From Gammaproteobacteria bacterium (GTDB lineage: Bacteria > Gemmatimonadota > Gemmatimonadetes > Longimicrobiales > Gaopeijiaceae), in assembly GCA_009840525.1 (NCBI GenBank), contig VXNP01000114.1, positions 1 through 33,935 of the forward strand: a stretch of DNA of 33,935 nucleotides, read 5' to 3'. Positions 1,697 through 33,935 of this stretch are shown here, piece after piece. Made by a program: the position numbers and the translations under genes. The notes under the pieces are model-generated. The model searched no databases and was not told where the DNA came from. It worked only from the letters and a program-made list of their open reading frames with translations. The stretch's first letter is position 1. The number at the start of each line of letters is the position of its first letter.

Positions 1697-1753
1697 GGAT
1701 CGAAGGGGGCGGAGCACCCCTCGCCAGCCGCAGTGTTCAACACTGCGTGTGCT
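1697..1753 (+). repeat. Two-hairpin dispersed repeat, copy 1
   Basis: Consensus GGATCGAAGGGGGCGGAGC then ACCCCTCGCCAGC, forming a G-rich/C-rich hairpin (about 1701-1723). A second stem follows, CGCAGTG (1729-1735), loop TTCAA, CACTGCG (1741-1747). Four more copies lie at 4767, 8921 (minus), 13283 and 25448. The first hairpin is conserved in sequence. In four of the five copies a second hairpin is clear, and its sequence differs while pairing is retained. No T-tract follows, so it is not a plain intrinsic terminator. Confidence 0.7.
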
Positions 1754-2021
1754 CTCCCGCATTAGCGGGCAAAACCGTCCTTCGGAGCGCGGAATCCGGG
1801 GTCGTCGGAGTCGCCATGGCGTGAAGTCAGGGGGCTGTTTCGGGCGGTGTCAACAGCCGCCGAAACGGCGACGTCCAAAGGGTTCCAGCGCCGTCCAGAA
1901 GGCGGAGGGGTCAGCGCCAGCGTCGTCTCCATCGCCACCGCGGGGCCTCGATCCCGAACTGGACGAACGACGGTTGATCGGGCAGGTTTCGGGGTGCCGC
2001 CACCTGCCGTAGGAGGGCCGG
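1754..2021. other. Intergenic region, no gene seen
   Basis: About 270 bases between the two-hairpin repeat and the next gene. No ORF with a ribosome site or recognisable product was found on either strand. The promoter of the gene at 2022 is presumably here, but no convincing -35/-10 pair was picked out by eye. Confidence 0.5.
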
Positions 2022-4545: not shown

Positions 4546-4766
4546 ACGGCTCTAAGTCGGGGCGCGGGTTGCCGTCCAACCCGACTCCGTCGAACTGCAA
4601 ACCCCTTGCCGGGCGCTGCGGCCATGCACGACCCGCCTCCGAGGACGAAGCCAGGAATCGTGCCGGCTCGGACGACGGCGGCCAATCGGTCGGGCGACCC
4701 ACGGGAGACACTACGGCGTCCAGAGCGGTCGAGTTTCGGCGGCGCTAACGGCGCGCCGTTGCCGTT

Positions 4767-4807
4767 GGGGTCAAAGGGGGCGCAGCCCCGCCAGCGTCCG
4801 CTGGGGA
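4767..4807 (+). repeat. Two-hairpin dispersed repeat, copy 5 (degenerate)
   Basis: GGGGTCAAAGGGGGCGCAGC followed by CCCGCCAGC retains the first hairpin. The second hairpin is reduced to CAGC-GTCC-GCTG or is absent. It is the most divergent of the five copies and lies in gene-poor DNA. Confidence 0.5.
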
Positions 4808-5071
4808 CTAACGGTGTGTGGCCGAAGAGTGACCTGCTCCGGCCACTAAACAGGGCCGAGGGCCAACTCCTGGGCAAGGATTACCGACGGTGGCTCCGAG
4901 CACTTTCTCGCGCTCCACTGTGCGACGCCCAGCCAAGCACCGCCCAGCCGATCCGCATCGCCGATACGGGGTTGCCGGCCCGCGTCAGGAAGCGTTGACC
5001 AATGGTGGGGAAGTCCCCCCTGAATCGCTCGACCTTCAAATGCGCCGCGGGAGGCCGTCAAGTCACGGAAG

Positions 5072-8750: not shown

Positions 8751-8920
8751 CCTTCCTTCTTCTCCTGTCGTGGGTACTTGAGCATCACTTTGTCGCCAGC
8801 GAGGCTCGGGAGCTTGCCCTCGACGGCCCCGGTCGAGGCTGTTCCAAAGCGATGCGCGGAGCGGCATTGCGGAGACGTCCACCGGGGCTGGTTCGCGACC
8901 TTTAGTGGTCGTGAGGCGTA

Positions 8921-8971
8921 CCCTTGGTAATACACAAGGGCTGGCGAGGGGCTCCGCCCCTTCGATCCCCC
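8921..8971 (-). repeat. Two-hairpin dispersed repeat, copy 4
   Basis: On the minus strand it reads GGGGGATCGAAGGGGCGGAG, then CCCCTCGCCAG, then a second stem CCCTTG-(TGTATTAC)-CAAGGG. The second stem shares no sequence with that of copies 1 and 2, yet pairs perfectly over six bases. It lies between convergent genes ending at 8750 and 9017, where it could serve both as a transcription barrier. Confidence 0.7.
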
Positions 8972-9016
8972 GCGATGGCCGCGCCAGCGCACGAGGCATC
9001 CGAGAGTCACCGCCTC

Positions 9017-13127: not shown

Positions 13128-13282
13128 TTTCGTGCGCCACTGTGGTGAGGACATGCGCATCAGCACCGCCGCCATCGGAACCGACGCAGCCCCCGTGCGG
13201 CGCTCACCCACGAGCGTCCGGGTGACGGCGTTCGGTGAACGGCGCACACCGCCCGATGGCTGCGACATCGGCGCGGAACGCT

Positions 13283-13347
13283 GGGGGATCTGAAGGGGGG
13301 CGCAGCACCCCCTCGCCAGCCGCAATGTTCAACGTTGCGTGTGCTGG
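13283..13347 (+). repeat. Two-hairpin dispersed repeat, copy 2
   Basis: GGGGGATCTGAAGGGGGGCG followed by CAGCACCCCCTCGCCAGC forms hairpin one. Hairpin two is CGCAATG-TTCAA-CGTTGCG (13321-13339). Compared with copy 1, one G-C pair has become A-T and another pair is a G-T wobble, so the stem is preserved. The 13130-13507 interval around it carries no gene. It separates the BlaI operon promoter from the end of the gene at 13508. Confidence 0.7.
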
Positions 13348-13507
13348 CTTGTCTCCCATAATCATGCAGATTCCCGCTTGATTTGCACGACCGGGTCACG
13401 GGGAAGGCGACCGGAGGGGGCTCCGAACGCCTCCTCGCGCTTGCCTGTGCGAAGGAAGCCTCCGGGACGCTGAGAGGCGCAACCTCGTCAGCCTTTGGGT
13501 ACGTTGA

Positions 13508-22512: not shown

Positions 22513-22582
22513 GTGCGCGCCATCGTTCGATTCCTCTCGAATCGATGGACCGCACGATCTGCACGATTGGCAAGTTCGCGGA
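22513..22582 (+). repeat. 70-bp dispersed repeat, copy 2
   Basis: Near match to positions 1-70 over the first 50 bases. In this copy the palindrome is perfect: TCGATTC-CTCTC-GAATCGA. It lies 127 bases upstream of a double-HTH gene, so it may be an old element end or a binding site. Confidence 0.7.
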
Positions 22583-22635
22583 CAAACGCCATCTCCGCCA
22601 TCCGGTCGCTGCCCGCTTCGGGCCGAGACGCGTGC

Positions 22636-22664
22636 TTTACAGTTGACGGAACGCGCGTCAATAT
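22636..22664 (+). promoter_or_regulatory. Possible promoter with palindrome for the HTH gene
   Basis: TTGACG (22643-22648) and CGTCAA (22656-22661) form a 6-bp dyad with a 7-bp spacer. It overlaps a candidate promoter, TTTACA (22636-22641), 17 bp, CAATAT (22659-22664). The start codon is 45 bases further on. Autoregulation by the encoded HTH protein would fit but is inferred from position only. Confidence 0.35.
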
Positions 22665-22708
22665 CGTGGCGGAATCCCGAGCGGCATCGAAACACGAGGA
22701 GGTGTACC

Positions 22709-23020
22709 ATGCCACCGCACACGATCCCCGACGCGGTGCGCGGTGAGATCATCGCACGCGCATGGGACGGCGAAACGTTCGCGCACATTGCTCGCGATCT
22801 CGGCGTATCGTCCTACCAGGTTGGAAGGATCGCGATGCGCGAGGGCGACTTCCCCACCAGAGCCGAGCTGATCCGATTGCAGGGCGATGCGATCTGCGCG
22901 GCTTTCGAGGAAAGCGGCAGCATGGCGGAGGTTGCGAGGCGGTTCGCGCTTTCGGAACAGGCCGTCTCGAACACGCTGCACGCGCGCGGAGTTCGGAGGC
23001 GAAAGCCGAGGCGAAGGTAG
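22709..23020 (+). CDS. Small protein with two helix-turn-helix motifs
   Basis: Protein of 103 aa with an excellent ribosome site (GAGGAGGT, ending seven bases before the ATG). Residues about 22-45 (TFAHIARDLGVSSYQVGRIA) and 70-92 (SMAEVARRFALSEQAVSNTL) each read as a helix-turn-helix of the resolvase/Hin or transposase type. The C-terminus is basic (GVRRRKPRRR). Two DNA-recognition helices without any catalytic domain suggest a small DNA-binding regulator or the DNA-binding subunit of a mobile element. It lies about 200 bp upstream of the winged-helix gene and may belong to the same unit. Family not named. Confidence 0.75.
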   Translation: MPPHTIPDAVRGEIIARAWDGETFAHIARDLGVSSYQVGRIAMREGDFPTRAELIRLQGDAICAAFEESGSMAEVARRFALSEQAVSNTLHARGVRRRKPRRR

Positions 23021-23216
23021 CGAGATTCTCCGAAACCGGCACCGCCGAGCCCCCGCCACGGAGGCTCAACCCTGACCTTCTCGAAGCCCGCGATCCCGCA
23101 ATTCTGCTCGCCCGGCAACAAACGGTTCGCCACGCCGCTGGCGACAGCGCCCCTCGATTGCTTGACTGTATTGAACATCCTCGAACGCTATCGGACAAGA
23201 GGCGATTCCTCACGAG

Positions 23217-24214
23217 TTGACTCGCTCGCGAGGTGCTATTCACCGTTTTCGGCGTGAGGCATGGGAGAGCATCGCGGTGATCGCGCATCTGAAGGGACGC
23301 GACCGGGCACTGGAACCCTTTGGCCTGTCGGGCCGCCGGGCCGAGTGGATCGTGCTGGCGAGCCTGCACGGCGGCGTGTTCACCCGCGCTCAACTTTCGG
23401 ACTGGCTCGAGGCCAGCCGCTTCAAGGTGCTCCGGCTCGTGCAGGCCTTGAAGGACCGAAGGCTGCTGGCCGAGGAGACGGTCGAGGGCCTGAAGGTCTG
23501 CCGGGTCTGCGCGCGCGGCATCTACCGGGCGCTCGGTGCCGAGGATGTCCGCTTTCGGAGGATCACCTCGACCGAGGTGGTCGTTCGCCGCCCGCCCTCG
23601 TTCGACTACGTGATCGAGCATCCGGGCCTGCCTTGGCTCGCTACCGAGTCGGAGAAGGTCGCCGCGTTCGAGGCGCTCGGCATCGACCGCTCCTTGCTGC
23701 CGGTCCAGGTCTACCGGGGCGCGGCCGGGGGCGCGCGGCGCTACCTTCCCGCGCGGGATGCCCGTGGCGCTGGACTCCCGCCGCGCCGTGTTCGTCCACG
23801 CCGATCCCGGCTACGACACCTCGACGGCGCTCCATTCGTGGCGGGACCGGCACCGGAGCCTCTGGGAGGGCGCTGAGGGAGGATGGCCTGTCGGTCGAGG
23901 CCGTCGGGGTCGCGTGCGCCCGGAGACCGCTCGACCGTGCGCGGACGATCCTCGGGAACTGGACCCATGCGGGCACGGCCCCGCGTCCCGTGCATCCGCC
24001 CGGGACCGTCGCCGCGGCGCGGCGCGAGGCCGCGCGCATCGAGGGCGCCATCCTCGGCATGGACGACGAGGCGGTCGCGGAAATGGGCGGCTTTCAGGCC
24101 TGCCTCCGCCGGATCGCCGAGATGCGGGAACTGCTCCGATCTGCGCGTCCCGGAGGCACGATCGACGCCCATTCGGTGTGGCGTTCGAGCCGCCTTTCCG
24201 GAGTCCGGATTTGA
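23217..24214 (+). pseudogene. Winged-helix protein gene, most complete copy, two frameshifts
   Basis: Parent of the dispersed fragments. The N-terminal domain (EPFGLSGRRAEWIVLASLHG, TRAQLSDWLEASRFKVLRLV, QALKDRRLLAEETVEG) is a winged helix resembling the DNA-binding part of replication-relaxation or plasmid mobilisation regulators; this is inference. A linker with FDYVIEHPGLPWLATESEKV follows. The frame then shifts by one base near 23756 (the ARMPVALDSRRAVFVHADPG segment is in the next frame) and again near 23871 (ALREDGLSVEAVGVACARRP in the third). Both sites are G-runs with one apparent extra base. The C-terminus has EGAILGMDDEAVAEMGGF and stops at 24214, followed by the structured element. 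Repaired length would be about 330 aa. A relative, open to the window edge, starts at 33737. Confidence 0.7.
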
Positions 24215-24512
24215 GGGCCGTTCAGGGGAGCCCGTTGCCGATCCGGAGGTGTGAAAACGACATCGGGGTGCTTGTGCAGGGAAATCGCGCCCGAGTGTGC
24301 GGAACGCTGGTTCCGCAAGTCGCCGGACGGCTTGGTGTTGGGCCACGGCCCGTGGATCGCCGGTGCCGATCCGGGTCTCCGGGCCGTGGACGGGAGCGAC
24401 CCCGGTGTTCGGCATGCCTCACACGGCCACGGCGGCGGTTGGGATGTGCACGGCCATCCCACCCTCGCCTGGGGTCGCTCCCGGTCCAGCAATCCCTTGC
24501 GGGAAGGCTCGT
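24210..24512 (+). repeat. Structured hairpin element, copy C
   Basis: Follows the stop of the winged-helix gene directly. After the conserved spacer, outer arms GGGAGCGACCCC (24392-24403) and GGGGTCGCTCCC (24471-24482) enclose an inner stem TGGGATG/CATCCCA (24440-24446 with 24455-24461). Next comes GGTCCAGCAATCC with a small hairpin CCC-TTG-CGGG. This is the reference copy because it still sits behind the nearly full gene. The remaining bases to 24812 carry no gene. Confidence 0.7.
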
Positions 24513-24812
24513 CGAGGGCCGAGACGACCACTGTCACTCCCGTGAGGGCGGTCAGGAACTTCTTCCGCCTTCCGTCCGGGGTCTGGAGGGGGACTCGACC
24601 ACGGAGGAAGGGACGGGCGGAGTCCGTCCCGGAGGCCGAGGGACCGGCGCCGAAGCGGTGGCAACGCCGGTCACGCTGTCCGCCGGTCACTCCGCGGACT
24701 CACCCGAAGCCCGATGGCCTCGACCGGCGGTGACTCCAGTTGCTCGCCGGGCTTTCCTTTTGGGATGAGCCAACAAGTGATACGACGGGAAGCTCGCAAG
24801 CAACCGACGTCG

Positions 24813-25435: not shown

Positions 25436-25447
25436 CGCGTGCATTTC

Positions 25448-25506
25448 CGGGGGATCGAAAGGGGGGCGGAGCACCTCTCGCCAGCCCCGGTGTATGACAC
25501 GGGGTA
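25448..25506 (+). repeat. Two-hairpin dispersed repeat, copy 3
   Basis: GGGGGATCGAAAGGGGGGCG, then GAGCACCTCTCGCCAGC, then a second stem CCCCG(G)TGT-ATG-ACACGGGG. The second stem pairs over eight bases with one bulged G, although its sequence differs from the CGCAGTG-type stems. It borders the signal peptidase remnant. The bases from 25507 to 25744 hold nothing recognisable. Confidence 0.65.
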
Positions 25507-25744
25507 GGCGGATCGCCAGAGGCCTAAATCACGGCAGGAGATCTTCTAACTACATACAGGACTGTACGATCTGCGATTCCTGCCATTGGACCCCGACGGG
25601 TTCCACCGTGCGCCAATAGAGGGAAAACCGCCATTGAGTGGCGGGAATTTGCGGGCAGCGCCGACCGACCTTCCGGCGCAGTGCGAGCACGGATTACCGG
25701 ATGGCTGACACCCGCCCTGCCCATGATCCGCCACCAGGAGTAAC

Positions 25745-26480: not shown

Positions 26481-26814
26481 TCCCCCGTCGTCGCGTCACG
26501 ACCGGCACCGACGCTTACCGCCGGCACCAGTGCCGACGGCCTGACACCCTTCCCGGAGGGACAACTTGCCCGGAGCGATCCGCCAATGTGGGGGATGATC
26601 CCGCCAGCCACCTTGATCAGGGTGCGATGGGGGAGTCCCTTGCTCTGGACCCGCTCGAGGTCGCTGTCCGGGAACAGCCCCCTCCAGTCCTCGAAGATGT
26701 GCGCGTTCTCAAGGAGAATCTAGCGAGTCTGCGAGCCTCCTCGCGCAGTCCGCAGAGCTTGGCCGTCCGCGTTCGACCCAAGATCGCGGCGGACTCAACG
26801 AGCATGGACGTCAT
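26477..26814 (-). pseudogene. Frameshifted small gene at the end of the defence operon
   Basis: The ATG at 26814 overlaps the methyltransferase stop (ATGA). Codons read MTSMLVESAAILGRTRTAKL, then CGLREEARRLARFSL. After about 35 codons the convincing sequence continues in another frame: ENAHIFEDWRGLFPDSDLER, then VQSKGLPHRTLIKVAGGIIP and HIGGS, to a stop at 26477. One base appears to be missing near 26715. Repaired length is about 112 aa. Without repair a 65-aa product results. The family is not recognised; overlap with the methyltransferase suggests a part in the same system. Confidence 0.45.
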
Positions 26815-29800
26815 TCCGTAGTGAAGTCCTTTCGGACCACCTGCGAGTATTCAAGTTCGATCTCTTCCCAGAGACTCGGTAGACCGAGCGCGCCCAAGAG
26901 CATCTTGTCGGATTGGTCGGTGATGTCGCGGCAGCGGGCAAGGTTGTAGTTGCCGATCAGCTTTCCGGCGTTCTGGTTGTAGATCGTGTTCTCCTCCATG
27001 GCCGCACTGAGCGCCGGCAACAAAGACGCCACCGCCCGTTGCACCGGTGGACTCAGCTGTGCCGGGCCGAGTGGCGCACGTTGGAAGTGGCCCTTGGTCA
27101 AGTGAAAGCTATCGCCGACCGCGACCCACCAGAGAAAGAGCAATCTGCCGTTCAGCAGAACCATGGAGGTGTTGCGGAGCCCTTCGTCGGCGAAACGGAT
27201 CGTTCCGTATTGTGTCTGCTCAAGAGCCTCTCCATCTCTACCCGTGACCGGTGGCTTGGCCACACAGAAGGTGAGCCAATTGTACCCTATCTGGCTGAAG
27301 TGAAGCTCGTGAGCGCCGAAGGACTTGGCCAAGTCTTGACGGAAGCGGTAGCTGTCCCCCAAGAGGGTCTCCAAGGCGTGGAGAAGCCGACTTGTTCCCA
27401 CCTTCGGGATGAGTCCTTCCCACCGATCCGGAGAGTACTTCAGGTAGGAGATCTGCGTGAACAGCGTCGACCGTTCTTCCTTGTCGAACCACCGGTGCAG
27501 GCGAGTCGCGTAGGTGGATGCCGCTGATCGGTCGCCGTCGCCCTGGACGCAACCCAGGAAGATCGTGTTTCGGATCTGTTCGCCGCCGCTGAACAGCTTG
27601 GAGGGGCGTCTGTCGTACGAGGAGAACCATGCGGCGGCGCAGCGCGCGTAGAGCAAATCGCGAAGCGGCCGAAACTGGCCTCCGAAAGTCAAGCTCAGGG
27701 GCACGATCATACCGACCCGGCCACGTGAGCGCGTGACGGCAACGCTCCGCTCCACCACCGTCGCGTAGACATCCGGGCACGACGCTGTCGCGAAATCGGC
27801 AGAGAGCGCATACCGCTTCCGCACCTTCGTCATACCGATATAGGGCGGATTCCCGACGACCACGTCGAATCCGCCTCGACCCTCCACGATCCCGAAGAAC
27901 TCGGCGCACCAGTGGAAGGGCTGGTGACTGGCCCGCCATTCGCCGAACCGTCGCGGCTTGTCCAGCGATGCCAAGTGCCGGTCGAGTTCGGCACGGAGTT
28001 CCGTCGTCCGACGCCGAACCTCGCGCTTGGCGCTGCGGATGGCGGCAGCGTCCGCGTCCGTCTCGGTCTGCAAGCGCTGAAAGCGGGCGAACGCGGTGGC
28101 GGCGCGCTTCGACCTTCTCTTGATGTCCGGCAGCGCCATTTCCGTGACCAAGTCGCCTTGCAGAGCCTCGCGGATGTCCTTCACCGAGGAGAAGCCCACA
28201 AGCGCGTTGCCTGGCCGGATATTGAAATCGATGTCGGGAAGCGGTTCGATCTGCTCGGGCGAGTCGAGTTGGGCCACGAGCTTGAGAAAGAGGCGCAGTT
28301 TGCATATCTCCGTCGCCTCTTTCATGATGTCCACCCCGTACAGGTTGTTGAGTACGATGGACTTGAGGATGAAGTAGCGTTCGCTGGGGTGCTGGGCCAA
28401 CTCCGCGAGCGTCCCGTCGGCGTCCGCGGGACGCAGATCCCGCATGCGGGCAAGACAGGCGGCGTAGACGGGTTCGAGGACCTTCAGGGCCGCGAACAGG
28501 AAGGCGCCGGACCCGCAGGTCGGATCGAGAATCGAGATGTTGGTGGCCGCCCGCCAGATTGCCAAGACAAGCTCGGGCTCGTCGGCGCGCCCAACGGCAT
28601 CGAGAATCAGCCGCTTGGCGTCCAGATTCAGCGTTACGAGGTCGTTGGAATCGCGAATGTCGCCAGCGGCCAGCTTCTTGCGCGTTTCGACGTAGCGCTC
28701 GCGTCGGGCGACCACCTGTCGCCAAGTCTCGCGAGGATGTGCGTATTCCAGCGGTGGACCGCCCTTGGACGCGGCGGGCCGATCCCAGTCAGTCCGGTTG
28801 GCGGGATCGCCGATCTCGGCGGCGACCTCCGGCGGAAGCTCAAGCGGCGGATCGACTCGGACCGGACTCTCGATGTCGCGGGCATCCCAAGCGAATCCGT
28901 GGCCAACCGGAGGGCGAATGTACCGATCCGGGTCTTGTTTGAGCCATCCGTAGACAGTATATCTGTCTGTCTGTCTGTCTGTCTGTCTGTCACCGCCATG
29001 TCCAGCAATCGCGGAATGATGGTGTTTTCCGCCATGTAGCCGGTGATGTCCTCCTTGGTGTAGTAGGCTCCCTTCTCCTTCTGGTTGATCGACTTCTCGA
29101 AGATGTGTCCCAGCACGTCCGGGTTGATCTCGTTGTCCTTGGCGTGGGGCCGCTCGTCAAGGTGCCATGAGTATCGGTCGAAGAAGCTGAAGAGCCGGGC
29201 GAAGGCCGCGTCGGGGATGCGGATGTCGGGGTTGTCGCGCTCCAGATCGTGGACATCGAAGATCCCGCCATTCAGGAAGGGCACGTCGCCGAGCAGGGCG
29301 GAAAGCTCCGGGGCGCGCTCGGACTCGGGCGTGCCCAGCCCCTCGTGAAACAGCCGCCGCAGGAATGAGCGGTAGAAGTCGTGGAAGCGGTCGGGACCGC
29401 GGGCCTTGCGCACGCGGTCGAGGCGGGCGCGGAGGTAGTTCGGGTCGCCGTCCAGGAAGCCTCGCTTCTGGATGAAGTAGATGAACATGAGCCGGTTCAG
29501 CATCAGCGATGCGTACCAGTCCACGGCACCGGACCGGTCGATACCGGTGATGAGCCTCTGGAAGGCGTTGAGTTCCTCCTGGTAGTGCTCGTAGAACCTC
29601 TTCGTGATCTTCTCGGCGTTGAGCGCGCTCCTGACCCGATCCGCGACGAGCGAAATGGTGAGGCTCTCCTCCTCGTCCAGTCCGAATGCGAGGTTCCGGA
29701 GGCGCTGGAGGACGGGTTCGCCGGTCTGTCCGGCCCGGAACGTGTATTCCCTGCTGGCGTCGGGCTTGCCCTGTTCTCGCCGAACCCAGTGCCACACCTG

Positions 29801-30094
29801 TTCTCGCCGCGCGCCATCCATGAACACAATCATGTGCTCGAACGCCTGTACGGTGATTCTGGTGTCCACCCGCCTGCGGGTTGCGTGGTCGGGGATCCGC
29901 CCGTCCTCGGATTCGCACCTCCAGACGACGAAGCCCTTCTTCTCGGCCACGGCCATCGCACGGAAACGTCGCTCCCCGATCGCCACCGCGACGGCGGAAC
30001 CGGAGTGGTGATTCCAGCCCAACTCCTCCACGAGTAGCCCGGTCAGGTCGAATCCGCGAAGACACTTACGCATCCTCTCGATGTTTGGAATCAC
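26811..30094 (-). CDS. Eco57I-type N6-adenine DNA methyltransferase, phase-variable, OFF frame
   Basis: A GTG start at 30094 overlaps the helicase stop (GTGA). The N-terminal 340 residues include EHMIVFMDGARREQVWHWVR and a helical region. Motif X-like KGAYYTKEDITGYM lies near residue 345, the SAM-binding ILDPTCGSGAFLFAAL at about 28520, and the catalytic VVGNPPYIGM at about 27850. The C-terminal part is probably a target-recognition domain. The gene would place a methyl group on adenine in a specific site. At codon 369 a run of seven ACAG units (28963-28990) shifts the frame: as written, translation ends at 28634 (486 aa, last 118 out of frame). Eight or five units restore DRYTVYGWLKQDPDRYIRPP and an unbroken frame of about 1095 aa. 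Confidence 0.88.
28963..28990 (-). repeat. (ACAG)7 phase-variation tract
   Basis: Seven perfect tetranucleotides (CTGT on the plus strand) plus one extra base lie inside the methyltransferase coding region. Repeat number modulo 3 decides the frame: 7 gives the ILSTDG off-frame, while 5, 8 or 11 give the TVYGWL on-frame. Repeats of this class (AGAC/AGCC) switch type III methyltransferases in Haemophilus and Neisseria by slipped-strand mispairing. Nothing else of this kind is in the window. Confidence 0.9.
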
Positions 30095-33000
30095 GATGAG
30101 TCATCCCTCCCGAAGAGCCCCATCGAACAGATGATGCGCGGTGCAGGCGGCTCCGGGTCGGCGTCGTCCCGGATGGAGAGCCGATCTTCGTCACGGAGCT
30201 TCACAACCAGACTCGCCAGCGCGTGGTCGTCCATTCCGGTGCGAAGATGGCGGTTGAGTGCGTCGGCCGCAGTGCCGCGTAGCGGATATTGGTAGATGTC
30301 GTCGAGGGCCAAGCGCAATTCGTGCAGATTGAAGAGCGGCATTTCCTTCTCCGCGAAGGCCACCCACTTCTTCAGCCGCTGATAGGCGCGGTAGCGGGCA
30401 CCGCGTTTGGAGCCCAACTGTCCCCCGGTCCGGTGCTGCTCCTTGGCGATGTGCCGCACGCCCTTCGCCACGAGTTCATGGTGGCGGCCGTCTCGCGACT
30501 GGGCGGGGGTGTCCGGGGCGCACTCGGCAGCGGCGAGAATCTCGACCTGCGACTCGGTCACGCTTTGGCCGGTCCTCGCATTGACATACGCCAGCGCATC
30601 ATGGTCGTCCGCCGTGCGCAGAAAGAGAAGTACGCCGTCTGGCCGCCCCGGCAAGAGGTGCCGGCGCGTGCTGTATACCACATCGGGCAGTGTCCGCACG
30701 GTCTCCGCCAGCCCCGGATCGTCGACCGTCGCGTTCCGCCAGATCTGCCACGCCTGACTGGCCAGATCCACCTCGCCGTCGTCCTCGTCGTCGAGAGTGC
30801 CCGCCTTCTCGTGGTAGAGGTCGAGGATGCGCTGTTCACCGTCCTCGTCGTCCTGAAAGAACGCCTCGTCGGCACCGACCACCTCGGCGTTCTCCGAAAG
30901 GCGCTTCCGGACCCGTCCGCGCAGATTGATGATGCGCTCGACGCCATCGGCGGGGAGGAAGGAGTAGCAAAGGATGTCCGGATCCTTCTGGCCGATTCGG
31001 TCTACCCGCCCGGCGCGTTGTATCAGCCGGATGATCGCCCACGGCAGGTCGTAGTTCACGACCACGGCGCAATCCTGAAGATTCTGGCCTTCGCTCAGGA
31101 CATCGGTGGCGATCAGCACCCGGATCTCGCTGGCGCCGGTTGGCATGCCCTCGTTGCTCTCGGGACTGAAACGCTTGGCCAGCAAAGTCGGGTTATCGGT
31201 CGCGCCGGTCACACCCGCCAAGTCCCCGACTCCTAGCTTCTCAAGCTGTCGGGCCAGGTAGTCGACCGTATCCGCGAATTGCGAGAAGACGAGGATCTTG
31301 CGATCCGGATGCTTCTCCGTCAGCAGCGCGTGAAGGGCTTCCAGCTTCGCGTCACGGGTCGGATCCCAACGACCGCTCCGCTTGAGAATGTCGAGCAGAG
31401 ATATGGTGTCCTCCAACAACTCCCGTTCGAGCGAATCGTCGAACAGGGACGAACGAAGCCACTTGAAGCGCTTTAGGAACTGACTCTTCCGGTAGGTGCG
31501 GTAGACTGCGGCCGCCCGCGCCATGAACGTGTCCATGTCCCACGGATCTCGGTGACCTTGCTCGTCGCCCAAGGGGATCGCCTCCTGAGCGTTGTGATCC
31601 TCGTCGTCCGTGAAGCGCGTGTCGGGTAAAGCCGCATCGAGCAATGCGACCTCTTGGCTGCCGACCGGAAGCGCGAGATCTTCGCGGATGGCATGGAGGA
31701 ACACGCAGTTGCGGAGGACATGGCGCTCGACCGACTGGATGAAGGCCGAGCCGCTGCTTTCCAACCGCTTGAAGAGATTCGTGCGGCAGAAGCCGATCAG
31801 ACGCTTGCCCGCCCGGGACAGGTTCTGGATCTGCCTCTTTTCCTCGTCGGTGGCGATGGCCTCCGCAGTCGCCGACAGGTGGAGCCCCAGCCCGTACCTT
31901 GGCAGCGAGAGTCCGATGACCGTTCTGACCACATCCTTACGGTACAGCCGGGCGTACTGGTCGTTCGGATCGTCATCGTCCACGTCAAACTTCACGGTGG
32001 CCGGGACGCGCTGCGGGAAGATCCTCCGGGATCCGTCCGCCATCATCAGGCAGGGGCGTCCGGTCTCGGGGTCCGTCTCGGCGTAGTTCTTCTGGATGAA
32101 TGTTCGCGTCCGCCGGACCAGATAGAGGCGCATCAGATCGCGCCAGTCGTCCGGGTTCTCGCTCCTCTCGAAGGCGGCCAGAGTCCGCAGCCCGACTTGG
32201 TAGCTTGCGCTGAACTCGACGTCGCCCATCGATCGAAGCACGCGTTCCGGACGAATCCCGATGTCCTCGTCCTCGTCCAGGAAGAGCCGCAACTGGTTCG
32301 AGAGATCGAGATAGGTCTTGTTGTAGGGCGTCGCCGACAGCAGGATGACCTTGCTCTCGTTCTCGTTGATGTACTCTTGGACGGCCCTGTAGCGCTTGCC
32401 CTCGCGATTGCGGAGGTTGTGGCTCTCGTCGATCAGCACGAGCCGGTAGCGGCGCATCTCCGGCAGGTCCGTTAGCACCTTGCTGAGCGACACCACCTTG
32501 GCTCGCAACTGGTACTCGTGGGCGTGATCCTCCCACATCGGGACCAGATTCTTCGGGCAGATGATCAGCGTTTCCAGCCCGAGGTCGTCCTCGAAGATTC
32601 TGGCCACGGCGGTCGCCATTCGTGTCTTGCCGAGCCCCACCACGTCTCCGATCAACACGCCGCCGCGCTTGTTCAGGTGGCGCGCGGCGATCTTGACGGC
32701 GGCCGCCTGAAAGTCGAAGAGCTTGTCCTTGAAGATCGGGGGGATGCTGAACTCGTTCAGCCCTTCGCGGGCCTCGTAGGACAGGTGGTAGGCCATCTTG
32801 AGGTAGACGTGGTAGGGTGATACCAAGTCCTCGCGCGCCCAGCTCTCGTCGATGATCTGGACGAGTTCTTCGGTGATGTCGATGCAGTAGCGATCCGCCC
32901 AACGATCCTCGAACCAGCCCGCCAGCTTCCGGGCAGCGTCCTGGTCGAGCACGTCCACGTTCAACTCGCCCTGACCGGACATCCCCGCGAACGTCAGGTT

Positions 33001-33489
33001 GCTGCTTCCGAGAAACGCCGTGACCGGGTTCACCGGATCGTCGCGGTACAGCAGGTAGAGCTTCGCGTGAAGCGAGTGCCGCAGGAACAGCTTGACCTTG
33101 ACCCTGCCCGCCCTCAGTTGGCGGGCCAGCCGTCGAAGCGCGGCCTCGTCGTCGTTGGTGGGTGCGCCGAAGGTCAACTGCTCGCGCAACTCCTTCGCCA
33201 ATCTGCGTCGCAGACGGAGTGCCGACCGGTTGTCAATCCCGAAGCGCTCTTGACCCCGGTTCGCGAAGTGCTCCCGCAATTCGTCCTCGGGTACGCGCTG
33301 CATGCCGACGAGGATGCGGCAGGGTCCTTCGCCGACCTTCCATCGGTCGATCAACGGGGCCACGCCGCCCCAGCCACGAAGGTTGATGTAGCCGACACAG
33401 AAGTCCGCCCGTGACGATAGGGCAAGCACCTCCCGCAAGGCGGGCAGGAGCTTGCTGGCCCGTGTCAGGTTGTCGAAGATCCTCGGCAT
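30091..33489 (-). CDS. PLD-nuclease/SNF2-helicase fusion, defence protein
   Basis: Protein of 1132 aa from the ATG at 33489, chosen because the family sequence begins there (MPRIFDNLTRASKLLPALRE). Residues 1-200 are a phospholipase D-type nuclease domain with HSLHAKLYLLYRD (H-x-K near 140) and GSSNLTFAG. Residues about 255-900 are an SF2/SNF2 motor: Walker A GLGKT at 286-290, DESH at 355, LLSATPYNK, and motif VI QRAGRVDRIGQKD. The C-terminal 250 residues are acidic then basic, with no named domain. PLD-helicase proteins next to large adenine methylases are known anti-phage modules, and DISARM has a comparable SNF2 protein (DrmD) with a methylase. DrmA and DrmB are not in this window. It overlaps the methyltransferase gene by four bases. 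Confidence 0.92.
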   Translation of the reverse strand: MPRIFDNLTRASKLLPALREVLALSSRADFCVGYINLRGWGGVAPLIDRWKVGEGPCRILVGMQRVPEDELREHFANRGQERFGIDNRSALRLRRRLAKELREQLTFGAPTNDDEAALRRLARQLRAGRVKVKLFLRHSLHAKLYLLYRDDPVNPVTAFLGSSNLTFAGMSGQGELNVDVLDQDAARKLAGWFEDRWADRYCIDITEELVQIIDESWAREDLVSPYHVYLKMAYHLSYEAREGLNEFSIPPIFKDKLFDFQAAAVKIAARHLNKRGGVLIGDVVGLGKTRMATAVARIFEDDLGLETLIICPKNLVPMWEDHAHEYQLRAKVVSLSKVLTDLPEMRRYRLVLIDESHNLRNREGKRYRAVQEYINENESKVILLSATPYNKTYLDLSNQLRLFLDEDEDIGIRPERVLRSMGDVEFSASYQVGLRTLAAFERSENPDDWRDLMRLYLVRRTRTFIQKNYAETDPETGRPCLMMADGSRRIFPQRVPATVKFDVDDDDPNDQYARLYRKDVVRTVIGLSLPRYGLGLHLSATAEAIATDEEKRQIQNLSRAGKRLIGFCRTNLFKRLESSGSAFIQSVERHVLRNCVFLHAIREDLALPVGSQEVALLDAALPDTRFTDDEDHNAQEAIPLGDEQGHRDPWDMDTFMARAAAVYRTYRKSQFLKRFKWLRSSLFDDSLERELLEDTISLLDILKRSGRWDPTRDAKLEALHALLTEKHPDRKILVFSQFADTVDYLARQLEKLGVGDLAGVTGATDNPTLLAKRFSPESNEGMPTGASEIRVLIATDVLSEGQNLQDCAVVVNYDLPWAIIRLIQRAGRVDRIGQKDPDILCYSFLPADGVERIINLRGRVRKRLSENAEVVGADEAFFQDDEDGEQRILDLYHEKAGTLDDEDDGEVDLASQAWQIWRNATVDDPGLAETVRTLPDVVYSTRRHLLPGRPDGVLLFLRTADDHDALAYVNARTGQSVTESQVEILAAAECAPDTPAQSRDGRHHELVAKGVRHIAKEQHRTGGQLGSKRGARYRAYQRLKKWVAFAEKEMPLFNLHELRLALDDIYQYPLRGTAADALNRHLRTGMDDHALASLVVKLRDEDRLSIRDDADPEPPAPRIICSMGLFGRDDSS

Positions 33490-33736
33490 GCTCGTGGTCC
33501 GTCGGGGTGGGAGGAGTCGGATCGGGATATCGGGGACGGAGGCTGGGAAAGGAATATGGATGGCGGCCCACCTCCGGCAACCACCGGCATCCCGCGCCAA
33601 GTGAAGCGCATGACACGCCGTTGGCGTTCGTGTCCGGCGGCTTGGATACCTTCCGGGACAGCATGGGAAGGCGAGAGACCGCAAGACGCACTCGGCCGGT
33701 TGACTCGCCTCAGGACCTGTCCTCAACGTACGGGGA
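33490..33736. other. Divergent promoter region
   Basis: About 250 bases between the minus-strand helicase and the plus-strand winged-helix gene, so it must hold both promoters. A TTGACT lies about 35 bases before the plus-strand ATG, but no good -10 box is at the right distance. No clear pair was seen for the helicase. A dyad for the winged-helix protein was not identified. Confidence 0.4.
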
Positions 33737-33935
33737 ATGACGACACCGAAGAAGCAGGTCAACTCCCGAATCGCCCAACTCACGGAACGCGCAAGGGCGC
33801 TGGAGCCGTTGGGCTGGAGGGGACGCCGTGCCGAATGGATCGCGCTCGCCTGCTGCCACGGCGGCGTGTTCACGCGGGTACAGTGGACGAGCTTCCTCGG
33901 GTCCCACCATGAAAAGGTGGGCCGCGCCGTCCGCA
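33737..33935 (+). CDS. Winged-helix protein, 5' part (runs off the window)
   Basis: The frame opens at an ATG preceded by GGGGA and continues to the window edge (66 codons). RARALEPLGWRGRRAEWIAL, then ACCHGGVFTRVQWTSFLGSH, aligns without gaps to the protein at 23217 (RDRALEPFGLSGRRAEWIVL). It therefore belongs to the same winged-helix family and is open as far as seen. It is divergent from the phase-variable defence operon, a position typical of a regulator, although family members elsewhere are remnants in mobile-DNA mosaics. C-terminus and any downstream hairpin element lie outside. Confidence 0.75.
   Translation, partial: MTTPKKQVNSRIAQLTERARALEPLGWRGRRAEWIALACCHGGVFTRVQWTSFLGSHHEKVGRAVR

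Follow-up and report, generated by a model that had tools for sequence, protein, structure and literature searches.

Origins of transfer (oriTs) that fold, lie before mob genes and vary in their nick-adjacent repeat are already known, as are oriT mimics and the elements termed iMOB and iOriT. In the ColE1 superfamily (MbeA/MbeC relaxosome; MOBP relaxases), an inverted repeat is found just 5′ of a GCTGGCTTA core, before mobC and the relaxase gene. In the pWBG749 family of Staphylococcus aureus, the oriT mimics have a constant core beside one divergent inverted repeat, and relaxase-less elements may carry two or three oriTs that serve mobilization in trans (PMC8136818). The terms iMOB and iOriT denote integrative mobilizable elements with or without a relaxase (PMC11389934). 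An oriT can resemble an RNA motif; the traJ-II entry of Rfam, listed as an RNA, corresponds to the oriT of RP4 (PMC6206304). Another kind of short palindromic intergenic repeat, also found in inverted pairs, is the REP element or REPIN that is associated with a RAYT transposase.

We analyzed a repeat in a stretch of 33,935 nt (the window), which is an entire contig of a draft genome of 3.99 Mb in 155 contigs. We conclude, with a probability of roughly nine in ten and from sequence comparison, that the repeat is a ColE1-superfamily oriT on which MbeA-like relaxases encoded by integrative mobilizable elements act. It has the arrangement of the ColE1-superfamily site, and its first two hairpins (hp1 and hp2) are also found on Aeromonas and Citrobacter plasmids; unlike that site, it is chromosomal, can reach dozens of copies in a genome, most of them lacking a relaxase, usually has an hp2 with an 8-bp stem and a 3-nt loop, and often has a third hairpin after the putative nick. 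The constant core and single divergent inverted repeat recall the pWBG749-family mimics, but those are plasmid-borne and few, whereas the copies described here are dispersed in chromosomes, sometimes as inverted pairs. As in iMOB and iOriT elements, an integrase and an oriT occur with or without a relaxase and without a full conjugation apparatus. The similarity to REP elements ends at the palindromes and inverted pairs, since our element is longer, is linked to relaxases and has no RAYT. Within our literature search, what appears to be new is the occurrence of the oriT family in this lineage and the number of its copies that are chromosomal orphans.

Copies of the repeat in the window

The original prediction, made from the letters of the window, described a two-hairpin repeat in five copies, and it placed all five correctly (1697+, 4767+, 8921–8971 on the minus strand, 13283+ and 25449+). 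It was also right that no T-tract follows and in the second stems that it gave for copies 1, 3, 4 and 5. A blastn search of the same genome with copy 1 alone returned copy 4 (E = 5e-12), copy 5 (7.5e-7), copy 3 (1.3e-3) and six more places, five of which were convincing. That search is independent of R1, the covariance model used to find copies genome-wide. R1 detected 13 clear copies in this genome, four of them within the 34-kb window, and the weak copy 2; because the model was built partly from window copies, the R1 scores given below are not independent.

Copy 1 (1697–1752, plus strand, 65.2 bits) consists of an hp1 region at 1697–1728 ending TCGCCAGC, hp2 at 1729–1747 (CGCAGTGT/ACACTGCG) and TGTGC at 1748–1752, in which the GC is the point of exchange discussed below. 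Its right-hand, putatively transfer-leading module (1751–1936, plus strand) has stem 3 at 1756–1769 (CCCGC/GCGGG) and matches its counterpart in the relaxase-linked oriT of L196 at 91% over 186 nt, the match beginning exactly at the GC. Copy 3 (8885–8976, minus strand, 62.9 bits) has its hp1 region at 8940–8971, hp2 at 8921–8940 (CCCTTG/CAAGGG), TACGC at 8916–8920 and stem 3 at 8896–8911. From 8916, again the GC, onward, its left side and the adjoining beta-propeller gene match locus L087. The right-hand module of copy 3 (type D1, 8800–8915, minus strand) is found elsewhere beside integrase 3′ ends; D1 was rejected as a coding region because its conserved-looking frames shift between copies.

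Copy 4 (13279–13374, plus strand, 69.9 bits), with an hp1 region at 13283–13320, hp2 at 13321–13339 (CGCAATGT/ACGTTGCG), TGTGCTGGCT from 13340 and a replaced stem 3, matches the relaxase-linked oriT of L227 at 82% over 216 nt. Copy 5 (25445–25509, plus strand, 63.8 bits) has its hp1 region at 25449–25485, a bulged hp2 at 25485–25504 (CCCCG-GTGT/ACAC-GGGG) and TAGGC at 25505–25509. Together with its right-hand module (type D3, 25510–25649, plus strand), which is common to L080, L087, L123 and L170, it matches the relaxase-linked oriT of L204 at 76% over 206 nt. Copy 2 belongs to a divergent subtype (4740–4837, plus strand), with an hp1 region at 4767–4795 and a long hp2 plus CTGC at 4796–4837. 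On its own it is weak (15.1 bits, E = 2.8 in the genome-wide search), and shuffled sequences fold as well as it does. We nevertheless consider it genuine because it can be aligned to relaxase-linked oriTs with a score of 119, compared to a maximum of 66 after shuffling, and matches those of L186, L189 and L201 at 80% over 89 nt. Its alignment to L157 and L159 extends left to about position 4720, the side on which mobC starts.

The full GCTGGCT is missing from copies 1, 3 and 5 and a normal stem 3 from copies 4 and 5, and for these reasons these copies are probably inert. The window yielded no gene of the oriT-linked family for a relaxase, MobC, AlpA or an integrase, and tblastn searches of the window detected no remnants of mob, alpA or integrase genes. 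The five copies look like decayed oriT relics, the halves of which match functional-looking oriTs. The window also contains collinear decayed duplicates at 1–1430 and 22513–24768, with blocks that are 76–94% alike.

Structure of the complete element

The whole element comprises about 100 nt: a conserved hp1, a variable hp2, TNNGCTGGCT and usually a variable third hairpin. It is therefore longer than the two hairpins first described, and intact copies carry the third as GCTGGCT...AGCCAGC. In the more complete genomic copies hp1 reads GGGG(A)TCGAAGGGG..CCCC(T)CGCCAGC and is followed by an hp2 stem of roughly 8 bp closed by a 3-nt loop, TNNGC, TGGCT and the variable third hairpin ending in AGCCAGC. 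Some copies add a closing stem that results in a cloverleaf fold of the single strand (z to −5.1).

The second stem had been proposed to be maintained by structure and not by sequence, and the genome-wide copies agree with this proposal. In 66 of 84 anchored copies hp2 reaches 6 bp or more (shuffled mean 13.3, maximum 19), and these 66 copies have 27 different hp2 5′ arms. In 51 of the 66, hp2 ends exactly 3 nt before the GC. The original prediction thereby passes the refutation test set for it, a lack of the second stem in most genomic copies. Covariation among 21 distinct hp2 sequences, which were preselected for a perfect 8-bp stem, gave 41 cells with both sides changed compared to 14.4 after shuffling, and nothing comparable was observed on sliding. 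Because of the preselection, the unselected count of 66 of 84 is the fair one.

Two other features were noted near the copies. A conserved GC-rich non-coding module (GGGCTCGACCCCGGCGG...) with several strong palindromes is located about 300 nt to the left of many copies (L127, L105, L114, L083 and others). In L100, L082, L083, L085 and L102, the presumed nick is immediately followed by tandem runs of GGCT or TTGC (for example GGCTGGCTGGCT...), as if formed by slippage or by repeated rejoining there.

Association with mobC and relaxase genes

For an independent test that started from the relaxase, 80 loci were fetched by relaxase protein alone, 58 of which have more than 700 nt upstream. In 50 of the 58 the site lies beside mobC, always on one strand and 342–514 nt upstream of the relaxase start; the loci include some congener genomes from the genus-wide test, seen again. 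In that test, a copy was within 1 kb of 15 of 56 PF03432 relaxases, where 0.52 were expected (Poisson 2e-17), and 14 of the 15 were at 508–640 nt in one relative orientation. Three more relaxases of the genus have divergent copies at the usual place, and for many others the contig ends before the usual site distance is reached. At six loci the upstream side of the copy faces a small gene and the relaxase.

The gene order around the site is int, alpA, site, mobC, relaxase, encoding an integrase, AlpA, NikA/MobC and a PF03432 relaxase; the NikA-like and MobC Pfam matches were above cut-off. The site lies where an oriT is expected in such an integrative mobilizable element. L128 has relaxase, NikA/MobC, oriT, AlpA and integrase in order and thus constitutes an integrative mobilizable element, whereas the window holds oriT relics only. 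A coupling protein was found in two of eight congeners. The relaxases match the NCBIfam model for MbeA of ColE1 (NF047848) over their full length (E = 6.9e-32 and 8.6e-27), a further likeness to the ColE1 superfamily, with scores of 111 and 94 bits that are far under the model cut-off of 500, and we therefore call them MbeA-like and not MbeA. The same genomes also have another family of PF03432 relaxases (E about 1e-25; L161–L170), without this oriT at the usual place.

Small proteobacterial plasmids of mobilizable type that encode relaxases with N-termini 48–59% identical carry the same site just before mobC. R1 detected it in Aeromonas pAH06-06-2 (E = 2e-5), a Citrobacter plasmid (6e-3) and Methylomarinovum IN45P (4e-4), and in all three, hp1, a hairpin resembling hp2 and GCTGGCT directly precede mobC. 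The GCTGGCTTA core is present in the Aeromonas and Citrobacter plasmids. A fourth plasmid, Polaromonas pPNAP08, gave no match to R1.

Exchange of half-sites

Left halves (hp1, hp2 and upstream sequence) and right halves (stem 3 and downstream sequence) occur in varied combinations. We compared breakpoints in 3,321 copy pairs. All nine pairs with similar right and different left sides share exactly 2 nt, the GC, on the left. The 19 pairs with similar left and different right sides share, beyond the GC, either 0 nt (nine pairs) or 5–8 nt (ten pairs) on the right. The GC that follows hp2 is thus the exact point at which left and right halves are recombined.

ColE1 is nicked at CTGG/CTTA, and we presume that the nick lies within the conserved GCTGGCT after hp2. 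This sequence is present in most copies; the D3 right half has GCGGA instead. The ColE1 nick maps 3 nt to the right of the exchange point, and the D3 copies read GC|GGAA, which leaves the assigned nick position putative. The observed half-exchange would result from strand transfer by a relaxase from one oriT to another, and homologous recombination in the shared core could also produce it. Strand transfer of this kind has been proposed as one possibility for staphylococcal oriTs (PMC8136818).

Distribution among genomes

The ten congeners searched have 2–48 copies each; other genera of the family gave no hits or weak hits only. The genomes are draft MAGs, with many copies at contig ends, and the genus is related to sponge-associated Gemmatimonadota, its named relatives being MAGs of BD2-11 and Ca. 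Palauibacter. The genome that contains the window has a single PF03432 relaxase, on another contig (C106) with its own site; with 13 clear copies and one relaxase, most copies must be orphans. Placement is intergenic, with two of 82 copies overlapping a called gene. Near relatives of the relaxases of the genus, with the same site, are found in genomes labeled Acidobacteriota, Bryobacterales and Longimicrobiales. In two single-chromosome records labeled Longimicrobiales and Bryobacterales (L188 and L189), relaxases 78–80% identical to the query have the site upstream.

Neighboring copies within 3 kb are arranged minus-then-plus in 16 cases, plus-then-minus in none and directly in six. Since some inverted pairs are orthologous between genomes, they represent fewer events than 16. 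The pairs often enclose cargo genes, and what lies inside differs from pair to pair; among the encoded products, a DUF6884 protein and a PD-(D/E)XK protein resemble PADLOC candidates. In the window, minus-strand ORFs of 634 and 486 aa at 26811–33873 match successive parts of the type IIG restriction enzyme model PDLC03628, so that the enzyme looks split; it adjoins a 1260-aa HKD/SNF2 helicase like that of candidate system C3a139. At L110, L130 and L091, genes beside copies encode, among others, a STAND-like NTPase and restriction enzymes of the type IIG/ISP and MmeI-like kinds.

Alternative explanations

The repeat was originally suggested to be a REP-like mobile repeat or an RNA motif. The first suggestion was correct regarding mobile DNA, but REP identity is not supported: the element has about 100 nt and three hairpins. 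The Y1/RAYT transposase (PF01797) was not found in the genome itself or in seven congeners, and a REP/RAYT element was rejected on this basis. More generally, an HUH enzyme (REP/RAYT, IS200/IS605-like or IS91-like) could mobilize a transposon that is bounded by the copies, each inverted pair being its two ends. The 16 inverted pairs of one sense would fit, as would a nic-to-nic unit of 385–394 nt that a single genome has at both L072 and L081. This explanation is nonetheless very improbable given the absence of PF01797 and the fixed association with mobC and relaxase in 50 of 58 loci; moreover, the inverted pairs enclose no common transposase, and the empty palindromic site AGCCAGCTGGCT was found in none of 17 genomes. 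Terminal inverted repeats of a transposon were rejected accordingly. In a separate empty-site search with L104, the region proved to be a mosaic itself. A structured RNA, such as a leader that regulates mobC and in which hairpins are kept for RNA function, would account for the compensatory changes in hp2 and for a site directly before mobC in functional-looking elements. It is the least probable of the explanations considered, as no Rfam match was obtained, the element also adjoins integrases and cargo genes in either gene orientation, and the nick-like core, where the halves are exchanged, is among its most constant parts.

Attachment sites of the nearby P4-like tyrosine integrases were also considered, with stem 3 as the core site and flanks shuffled by excision and integration. 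Integrases do co-occur with the element (22 of 65 are no more than 6 kb from one), their 3′ ends nearly always face its downstream side, several at 287–320 nt, and stem 3 resembles two arms around a 6–8 nt centre. However, exchange takes place at a 2-nt point before stem 3 and away from its centre, and the halves swap at the GC between partners that need no common 6–8 bp overlap, whereas an att or attC site would require such an overlap. The element is furthermore internal, between alpA and mobC, in the int-alpA-mobC-relaxase elements, and it lies upstream of mobC on small plasmids. Both the place of exchange and the internal location of the element led us to reject the attachment site, which we regard as highly unlikely.

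The oriT assignment is favored because of the position before mobC and the relaxase gene, the relaxase family, the nick-like core, the structure of hp2 and the half-exchange at one point. Several points count against it: most copies have no nearby relaxase, inverted pairs of one sense are not predicted by it, the NCBIfam scores are far under the MbeA cut-off, the exchange point is 3 nt upstream of the ColE1 nick in copies with the D3 right half, and the genomes are draft MAGs. A possible but doubtful explanation of these pairs, in which hp1 and hp2 face inward and the nick outward, is that they bound a cassette moved within or between chromosomes by relaxase strand transfer.

Discussion

In the proposed mechanism, the relaxase would nick the oriT, hp2 being the inverted repeat just 5′ of the presumed nick and hp1 and stem 3 the flanking structural parts. 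The sequence of hp2 differs among subtypes while its fold is kept, probably because the specificity of the relaxase or of MobC resides there. A relaxase produced elsewhere may act in trans and transfer orphan copies, and nicking at one oriT followed by rejoining at another would generate the half-exchange. The five window copies would then be decayed oriTs left by small mobile elements that shuffle genes, defence genes included.

These findings give an identity to a repeat that resembles a REP element or an RNA motif, and they show that oriTs can be recognized without a nearby relaxase from a kept fold beside the nick core. If inverted pairs do bound cassettes, gene cassettes with oriT ends would represent a new route by which genes are shuffled. 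Because the junctions are precise, relaxase-mediated recombination can be tested from sequence, and the spread of the element points to a relaxase-in-trans network that may move genes, including restriction enzymes, between phyla in one habitat.
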